A stretch of DNA of 55,875 bases from assembly GCA_903874895.1 (NCBI GenBank), contig CAIQUG010000108.1, forward strand, positions 1 to 55,875, given 5' to 3'. Positions 53,086 through 54,465 of the stretch are shown here, piece by piece; position 1 is the stretch's first letter, and each line of letters starts with the position of its first letter. The translations under genes were made by a program, and so were the position numbers. This stretch comes from an uncultured Caulobacterales bacterium (GTDB taxonomy: Bacteria; Pseudomonadota; Alphaproteobacteria; Caulobacterales; Caulobacteraceae). The notes beneath the pieces were generated by a model. The model saw nothing but the letters and a program-made list of their open reading frames with translations, was not told the DNA's origin and made no database searches.

Positions 53086-53158
53086 GGGCCCGTAGCTCAA
53101 TGGTTAGAGCCGACCGCTCATAACGGTCTGGTTGGGGGTTCGAGTCCCTCCGGGCCTA
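53086..53158 (+). tRNA. tRNA with anticodon CAT (probably tRNA-Ile2, otherwise tRNA-Met)
   Basis: The cloverleaf folds completely. The acceptor stem is GGGCCCG/CGGGCCT, the D-arm is GCTC/GAGC, and the anticodon stem GACCG/CGGTC carries the loop CTCATAA (anticodon CAT). The T-arm is GGGGG/CCCTC and the discriminator is A. The C4-G69 and C5-G68 pairs favour tRNA-Ile2, whose C34 becomes lysidine, over elongator Met; it is not initiator-like. The genome continues ACCG, so the CCA end is not fully encoded. The 3' end is duplicated at 54441-54458. Confidence 0.9.
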
Positions 53159-53160
53159 CC
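53143..53160 (+). repeat. Left attachment-site repeat (tRNA 3' end)
   Basis: The 18 bases AGTCCCTCCGGGCCTACC cover the 3' half of the T-arm, the acceptor strand, the discriminator and two following bases. They are identical to 54441-54458; the flanking bases differ on both sides. Confidence 0.85.
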
Positions 53161-53203
53161 GCTGGCGGAATTCTGTTATTTTTCAATATATTGGATTTGT
53201 GCT

Positions 53204-53234
53204 TGTAGCAGTTCCTGTAGCAATTTTTGTATCA
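53204..53234 (+). repeat. Three heptamers at 12-base period
   Basis: TGTAGCA (53204), TGTAGCA (53216) and TGTATCA (53228) are spaced exactly 12 bases apart, about 45 bases inside the left attachment repeat. Such clusters near att sites often bind the arm-type domain of a tyrosine integrase. Confidence 0.55.
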
Positions 53235-53437
53235 ATCGGGCTCGATAGCGTGCCTAGCGGCACCTCCTTGCATTCCCCGAAATGTCTCCAACACCCTGAA
53301 AAGATTTATGTTTATGGATTTGGACAGGAAAAGTCAGGAATGTCAGGTTAGCCAGTCCGCGATGGGTTCGGACTGCGACGCTCATGGACGGTTCAAAACC
53401 ATCTTGCTCGGATGGAACATTTCATGAACATACCGGC

Positions 53438-53719
53438 ATGGGGCATCGCAACTATGACCGCTGGACACCGTCGGATTGGCGCCTCACCGCAGAGACAGTT
53501 GAGCAAATGCAGCGCTTCGGCTGGGACGTTCTGTCGTTCTGCACGTCGTGCCATCTGTCGATGCAGGTTGACCTGGCGCTGATCATAAGGATCGCCGGAC
53601 CCGAGACGGTCCTTTGGAACCGACAGGCGCAATGCCGGAGGATCGGCTGCGGTGGAACGGTCGAGTTCCGCGGGCGACCGCCAAAGCTCGCGCGACATAT
53701 TCGGCTAATGATGGGTTAG
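53438..53719 (+). CDS. Small protein with CxxC/CxxxxC motif in the mini element
   Basis: 93-aa frame: MGHRNYDRWTPSDWRLTAET, then FGWDVLSFCTSCHLSMQVDL and RQAQCRRIGCGGTVEFRGRP. Cys35/Cys38 and Cys66/Cys71 could bind one zinc as a ribbon. Short Cys-paired proteins of this style occur in Caulobacterales and Sphingomonadales, but I know no function. No Shine-Dalgarno is clear; an ATG at 53384 would add 18 residues. Confidence 0.5.
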   Translation: MGHRNYDRWTPSDWRLTAETVEQMQRFGWDVLSFCTSCHLSMQVDLALIIRIAGPETVLWNRQAQCRRIGCGGTVEFRGRPPKLARHIRLMMG

Positions 53720-53805
53720 AAGATGACTGGCAAATTACAAACGTCAGATTGACTTCACCCGGTATGCGAACATGGTTAACGCCTTCGTGCTTTTAGGAGG
53801 GTGCT

Positions 53806-54165
53806 ATGTCTGATGATGAGAATCGGGGTCCGTTGCAACTTCTCGACATAACGAGCCTGATGGGGCAAGGCGCAACCTCGAATGACAGAAAGCCCCCGAA
53901 GCCAACTATAGGAGCAATTATACTCGGAGCTATTTTAGGACTTTTCGAGCTCCTGAAGACGGCTATTGGTATTTCGGTCGGTATTATCTGTATCGCGGGT
54001 GGCGCTTGGCTTTCCTATGTCGGGATAACTGCGAATACGTCTTGGTCGATACATTTTATGGGTGAGAGTTTCGACCTGACGACATCAGCTCCGGGCGTCG
54101 TGATGATAGTTGCGGGGATGGCTATCGTCTTCGTAGCTTTAAAAGCGCACGAGATCAGGGCGTAA
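53806..54165 (+). CDS. Small hydrophobic membrane protein in the mini element
   Basis: 119 aa. A polar N terminus (1-32) is followed by hydrophobic segments at about 35-50 and 53-73 and a final one at about 96-113, with a short polar loop between (TANTSWSIHFMGESFDLTTS). AGGAGG five bases before the ATG strongly supports translation. The use of ATA and TTA codons is unlike the neighbours and marks it as foreign. No family is recognised. Confidence 0.65.
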   Translation: MSDDENRGPLQLLDITSLMGQGATSNDRKPPKPTIGAIILGAILGLFELLKTAIGISVGIICIAGGAWLSYVGITANTSWSIHFMGESFDLTTSAPGVVMIVAGMAIVFVALKAHEIRA

Positions 54166-54380
54166 GGAACACGGATAAAAAGGACGTGCCCGACGATTTC
54201 CTAGTTCTTCACTTCGCTTGCACCGGATTCTGTCTTTCCATCGGCGAGAGCCCAAACCACAGCCAGCGATCCTCCTTGGGTCACTAGCGGGCATGGAATG
54301 GCAGTTTATTGATATGTGTCTGCTACGGCGTCGGTATGGGGCGATGATGGCGGCTTAAGCCCCTTGCCACACCTTCCCCA

Positions 54381-54409
54381 AAGGTTAGACGATCGCCCCA
54401 AGGTTAGAC
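54381..54409 (+). repeat. Direct repeat near the right end of the mini element
   Basis: AAGGTTAGAC occurs at 54381-54390 and again at 54400-54409, each preceded by CCCCA, about 35 bases before the right attachment repeat. It is a candidate integrase or excisionase binding pair. The stretch 54166-54380 has no convincing ORF. Confidence 0.5.
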
Positions 54410-54440
54410 ACTGCAAGCCCTTGATGTCATTGGCCACAGC

Positions 54441-54458
54441 AGTCCCTCCGGGCCTACC
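54441..54458 (+). repeat. Right attachment-site repeat
   Basis: Exact 18-bp copy of 53143-53160. Host-like high-GC sequence (the YCII gene) resumes eight bases later, so this marks the right boundary of the inserted DNA. Confidence 0.85.
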
Positions 54459-54465
54459 AACCGCC

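Follow-up and report, generated by a model that had tools for sequence, protein, structure and literature searches.

An integrase-less 1.3-kb insertion at a tRNA 3' end of an uncultured Caulobacterales bacterium, probably the att-flanked ends of a phage or phage-like island

The insertion and its tRNA target

What is a 1.3-kb segment, bounded by two copies of a tRNA 3' end and devoid of an integrase, doing in the genome of an uncultured Caulobacterales bacterium? The window analysed here is the complete stretch of 55,875 nucleotides of contig C108, from an assembly of 3.56 Mb in 266 contigs. Its target tRNA gene (53086..53160, + strand) has anticodon CAT and is detected by ARAGORN, which names it tRNA-Met, and by Rfam; we take it to be probably tRNA-Ile2 rather than tRNA-Met, on account of its likeness to E. 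coli ileX. The 18-bp 3' end of this gene, AGTCCCTCCGGGCCTACC, forms the attL core (53143..53160, + strand) and recurs as the attR core at 54441..54458 (+ strand), the two starts lying 1298 bp apart. The direct repeat reported by the first-pass annotation is thus exact at both positions. The tRNA 3' end has no other exact repeat of at least 12 nt on either strand of the window, and the two cores are the sole exact copies in the 3.56-Mb genome, where the next best match carries two mismatches. The GC content of the insert (53161-54440, about 1280 bp) is 52.6% versus 68.9% and 71.9% in the flanks, bearing out the low-GC character noted earlier.

The two cores have a polarity. The tRNA gene ends in ACC-G where CCA would be encoded, and the distal copy reads ACC-A, with the A at 54459 completing the CCA as in relatives. 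The target is the one tRNA gene among 39 in the genome that does not encode CCA; the other 38 (RF00005) do. It is also alone in having its 3' end (at least 12 nt) repeated downstream on its own contig, in a scan of up to 6 kb downstream on each contig with at least 1.5 kb readable for 28 of the 39 genes. For two of the other 38, tRNA-Ser(tga) and tRNA-Ala(cgc), a displaced copy of the 3' end is found on a different contig, in keeping with their larger islands.

Relatives provide the empty sites that the first-pass annotation proposed to look for. Of the 29 copies of the target tRNA examined in relatives, 26 encode CCA, including all five of the same genus. These five genomes have a single core copy, no element and no second copy of at least 12 nt in the downstream sequence available, which extends from 1.1 kb (G001) to 12.5 kb. 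Genome G003, of the same genus, has one copy flanked on its two sides by a SIMPL gene and an ABC-transporter gene, like the site in the window; the 300-430 bp adjoining the tRNA differ from the window and the flank match is not exact. The target tRNA ends in ACCG rather than ACCA in G010 (L021), G018 (L020) and G028 (L013). Over about 9.8 kb, a second core copy was sought in these relatives: G010 has nothing longer than 9 nt and G028 has none, while the contig of G018 ends there.

The exact core repeat, together with a CCA lost proximally and kept distally, identifies the 1.3-kb segment as a real site-specific insertion at the tRNA 3' end. Its border repeats and its absence from same-genus genomes are those of a tRNA site used by a tyrosine integrase, of which an integrase of its own is the missing hallmark: contig C108 has no match to PF00589, and Pfam, PHROGs and NCBIfam reveal no integrase or other recombinase in the submitted ORFs of the element. 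An insertion without its own integrase, as first described, is therefore upheld by the core repeat, the CCA polarity and the absence from same-genus genomes. The segment is missing from relatives and no relative was seen to keep both of its ORFs, so that neither outcome named in the first-pass annotation as refuting its reading came about.

End repeats and the two ORFs

Short repeat clusters had been described near both ends. On the left, three tandem 8-nt sites, TGTAGCAG, TGTAGCAA and TGTATCAA (53204..53235, + strand; starts at 53204, 53216 and 53228), follow the form TGTA(G/T)CA(A/G) with a 12-bp period, 43 bp beyond the core. Pairs of this form at up to one mismatch occur in the window at the left cluster alone. 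Read by eye, and by their distance from the core, these sites look like arm-type integrase sites. On the right, the repeat pair CCCAAAGGTTAGAC / CCCCAAGGTTAGAC (54377..54409, + strand), two 14-nt copies at 54377 and 54396 that are 93% alike, exceeds chance expectation only weakly: 4.6% of resampled sequences contained an exact 9-mer repeated within 100 bp. The left cluster thus stands and the right one does so weakly. Arm sites common to both ends were considered and rejected, the degenerate right-end forms CTGCTACG and TTGATATG, picked by eye, failing the pair test. A likeness of the right-end AAGGTTAGAC to the att region of phage contig L166 was dropped as well, one 9-mer match in 1.08 Mb of loci being at chance level. 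The two ends are therefore without common arm-type sites, in contrast to the tRNA-Ser(tga) island of the same genome, which has GTGGACC repeats near the core at both ends.

Both small ORFs announced in the segment are present. ORF2 (53806..54165, + strand; 119 aa) is probably a small membrane protein whose predicted fold is of low confidence (pLDDT 62.0). It has no relative in viral contigs, is found in 100 relatives as its own copy alone, and gives three marginal matches (E 0.0016 to 0.0078) in 390 family genomes. Neither ORF2 nor ORF1 has a match in phage and plasmid records at E 0.01, and defence-system models gave none.

ORF1 (53438..53719, + strand) encodes a 93-aa zinc-ribbon-like protein of a gene family found at the ends of islands and phages. 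Judged from its homologues, its start is likely at 53438 and not at 53384. Residues C35, C38, C66 and C71 are invariant among 18 homologues, and the predicted alpha/beta fold (pLDDT 90.8) has the look of a zinc ribbon. The family appears to be undescribed: no Pfam or NCBIfam model matched, the best PHROG reached E 0.1, and a narrow literature search found no published account. Fold neighbours are not convincing in the PDB (best E 1.1) or by VIA-align (best Z 2.8); the best in BFVD is an unnamed 87-aa viral protein (E 0.016, TM 0.50), and the PDB holds no sequence relative. The nearest named genomes are those of uncultured Caulobacterales, other alphaproteobacterial MAGs, Caulobacteraceae and Phenylobacterium. 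Three more copies are found in the same genome, one of them truncated. Comparison with the G004 copy (dN 0.12, dS 1.70) indicates that ORF1 has evolved as a protein, under a selection that these values do not date to after the supposed deletion discussed below.

Close homologues of ORF1 are mostly found beside tRNA genes. Eight chromosomal loci fall at or above 60% identity, and in five of these ORF1 lies no more than 300 bp from a tRNA 3' end: the window, contig C102 of the same genome, G003 C14, G004 C156 and G410 C34. For comparison, simple arithmetic gives about 0.3% of the genome as covered by 300 bp at each of 39 tRNAs. Of the other three loci, that on contig C165 of the same genome has next to it a 12-nt copy of the end of tRNA-Ser(tga), and G003 C18 and the truncated copy on the genome's own C237 have none. 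The association does not extend to more distant ORF1 loci, where a tRNA within about 1.5 kb is found in 0 of 24, a count that leaves out L150 and L151, matched by 28-29 bp of DNA only. At one distant locus, G064 C8, a tRNA-Ser lies about 1.6 kb away with an integrase in between, and a PF00589 match within 10 kb is found at 5 of 20 distant loci, compared by eye.

Tandem repeats of their own kind, recognized by eye, separate the tRNA from ORF1 on the genome's own C102, in G004 and in G410. The ORF1 copies of G410 (L144/L153) and of C102 (L042) are 93% alike in protein and both lie beside tRNA-Arg(acg), in two genera; the tandem repeats between tRNA and ORF1 differ in this pair. Longer homologues of 176-190 aa (L162, L164, L048 and L065) have a second cysteine-bearing part at their carboxyl terminus, which the next ORF of L166 (10298-10621) resembles by eye.

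A putative LexA (SOS) box, GAACATTTCATGAAC (53415..53429, + strand), with the motif GAAC-N7-GAAC, precedes the start of ORF1 by 23 bp. For Caulobacter, the published LexA motif reads GTTCN7GTTC (PMC12700426). Of 30 ORF1 homologues, 17 have GAAC-N7-GAAC in the 120 bp upstream; being kin, they do not amount to 17 independent events. Among 1322 control ORFs picked mechanically, spurious ones included, the count is 14. The set of 30 leaves out L004 (truncated), the second G022 copy (L093), L147, L057 and L243, and adds L165 and L166. Five of its members have an uncertain start (L054, L058, L061, L069, L146), all of them boxless, and L051, which has the inverted form of the motif alone, was scored as lacking the box. 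All eight close homologues carry it, at -23 to -26. The motif is not rare in the window alone (2 matches versus 0.94 expected), and its weight comes from conservation across homologues. It is also found upstream of recA in the same genome. An ORF1 relative at 46% in viral contig L243 has no box within 120 bp and has one 410 bp upstream. The conserved promoter box, as expected of a LexA-regulon gene, suggests that ORF1 is under LexA control and would be de-repressed on DNA damage. With this box, and found next to tRNA ends or att sites in one phage and several different islands, ORF1 is the main feature of this locus, one that the first-pass annotation passed over, and the more useful lead from it.

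Origin of the element

The viral contig L166 (IMGVR_UViG_3300047495_000053) offers the closest parallel to the element. Its genes and sites are ordered methyltransferase, integrase, tRNA-3'-end-like sequence, LexA box and ORF1, with a tail-fibre gene further on. It carries no whole tRNA, which suits an unintegrated attP. It shares with the element the tRNA-3'-end-like sequence, the LexA box and the ORF1 homologue (60% identity), all on the same strand; unlike the element it carries integrase, methyltransferase and tail genes, and its core sequence differs. The left half of the element matches the ORF1 side of L166 in order and strand; the integrase of L166 is on the opposite side.

Two islands of the same genome have displaced tRNA 3' ends like the element and, unlike it, tyrosine integrases; the repeats adjoining their cores also differ. 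The tRNA-Ser(tga) island is split over C179 (L100, 381-1957) and C165 (L041, about 480-600), with a 454-aa integrase on the tRNA side and a 12-nt copy of the tRNA end at the far end. The tRNA-Ala(cgc) island comprises C208 (L216, 2-77) and C143 (L099, 209-1735), and its 37-nt displaced tRNA 3' copy lies beside a 439-aa integrase on C143, which is the far end. Both layouts thus exist, and the integrase on the tRNA side of tRNA-Ser(tga) indicates that far-end placement is not universal. The whole genome has four PF00589 matches. Arsenic-type genes, recognized by eye, are found beyond the C143 integrase.

We privilege the hypothesis that the element consists of the two ends of an integrated phage or phage-like island whose interior, integrase included, was deleted, and we regard it as probable. 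It is built on the close homologues of ORF1, mostly found beside tRNA 3' ends and in one case beside the attP-like site of a temperate phage. The ancestor would have been a temperate phage or phage-like island, inserted by a tyrosine integrase at the 3' end of the target tRNA gene. The ancestral attP would have had tRNA-proximal arm-type sites followed by the LexA-controlled ORF1, with the integrase on the other side as in L166. On integration, ORF1 of such a phage comes to lie beside the tRNA, and its integrase at the opposite end. An internal deletion could then have removed the integrase and nearly everything else, leaving attL, the arm sites, ORF1, ORF2, the distal end and attR. Such a relic could not excise itself, although it might still be mobilised by a compatible integrase from another source, and DNA damage would de-repress its ORF1. 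The core repeat with its CCA polarity, unique among the 39 tRNAs, the sites without the element in the five same-genus genomes, the gene order of L166 and the far-end integrase of the tRNA-Ala(cgc) island count for this hypothesis. The failure to find an undeleted parent, the lack of arm-type sites common to both ends, the tRNA-side integrase of the tRNA-Ser(tga) island, the lack of tRNAs at the more distant ORF1 loci and the lack of a convincing relative by which to place ORF2 count against it. The search for a full-length parent with the core-plus-arm pattern gave 10 stretches of viral contigs, none with a tRNA or tRNA-like core, and the right-end pattern gave 0 matches; the 390 family genomes gave 2 matches besides the window, neither preceded by a tRNA core.

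The dissimilar ends could also be the scar of two islands accreted at the target tRNA, with a deletion that began within one and ended within the other, which would keep the left end of the first island and the right end of the second. The TGTAGCA-type repeats of the left end do differ from the AAGGTTAGAC-type repeats of the right, while the genome's tRNA-Ser(tga) island carries the same repeats at its two ends. Accretion is also seen there, an island lying between tRNA-Ser(tga) and an ORF1 copy that in G003 is 47 bp from that tRNA. However, the repeat at the right end is a weak one and perhaps no arm site at all, and a single deleted island is simpler, so that we hold the two-island scar to be unlikely.

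The first-pass annotation had left the choice between a deletion remnant and a small satellite mobilised by an integrase encoded elsewhere; we infer the former. As a minimal 1.3-kb satellite, the element would consist of attL, attR and arm sites moved in trans by another element's integrase, and its SOS-induced ORF1 would help excision, for example as a directionality factor. The exactness of both cores, the intact ORF1 with its LexA box and the conservation of ORF1 as a protein would agree with this. So would the C143 integrase region, where CCGTATCAG occurs twice, each copy differing from the left arm sites by no more than one mismatch. But that pair has a 10-bp period and the C143 island has another target tRNA (Ala); the repeats of the C179 integrase region do not match the left arm sites; and arm-like sites are significant at one end of the element only. 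A satellite is also expected to recur as a discrete unit, and no second copy was found in the same genome, at its other tRNAs, at the same tRNA of relatives or in the 390 family genomes. We consider such a satellite quite unlikely. Its further elaboration is a long shot: in a class of Caulobacterales phages and islands, ORF1, as the excision or directionality factor, would mark the end next to the tRNA and would remain after they are gone. If true, DNA damage could mobilise integrase-less relics through a helper integrase.

A chance repeat or assembly artefact with no insertion at all, to which the fragmented MAG-type assembly and the lack of an identical insert-free flank might lend colour, is scarcely credible given the perfect recurrence of the 18-mer no more than 1.3 kb from the end of the tRNA, the CCA completed at the distal copy only, and the SIMPL and ABC-transporter genes on either side of the site in G003 as here.

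Relation to known integrase-less elements

The first-pass annotation had suggested that a family of such cassettes would be new. The proposed family of 1-2 kb cassettes did not materialize: there is no second one at the other 38 tRNAs of the genome (at least 1.5 kb being readable for 28 of all 39) and none within up to about 1.5 kb of the same tRNA in 29 relatives, and the 390 family genomes have DNA of the ORF1 region alone in common with the element, with no repeated unit. Nor does its small size make it novel, relics of such size without an integrase being already described as CIMEs (cis-mobilizable elements; PMC7563491). These are defined as elements without integration and transfer genes in which attL and attR are kept (PMC5704250). 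Classical CIMEs are reported to span 1.2-13 kb and gene-free microCIMEs 130-220 bp, and 215 CIMEs were counted at a tRNA-Lys gene in S. agalactiae (PMC7563491). Integrase-less units moved in trans are likewise a known idea (CALINs, MITEs; PMC11389934).

On the descriptions in these sources, the element resembles CIMEs in its kept attL and attR, the loss of recombination and transfer genes, the retained cargo, a size of 1.3 kb within their range and a tRNA site. By definition, however, CIMEs are decayed ICEs or IMEs, whereas ORF1 suggests that the element derives from a phage or phage-like island, and unlike CIMEs the element has no tandem neighbouring mobile element in sight. Its size and its lack of an integrase are not new and it is most likely an ordinary kind of relic, which makes it a clean and very small alphaproteobacterial case of the decay of a phage-type island to its att-flanked ends.

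A larger, integrase-bearing island at the same tRNA had been another proposed sign of this history. A full-length parent was not found, but a short integrase-like frame was: in G051, of the same order (L140, 580-1385), GGGTCAC repeats and an integrase-like frame of 228 aa lie downstream of the target tRNA and are probably another decayed island at the same site.
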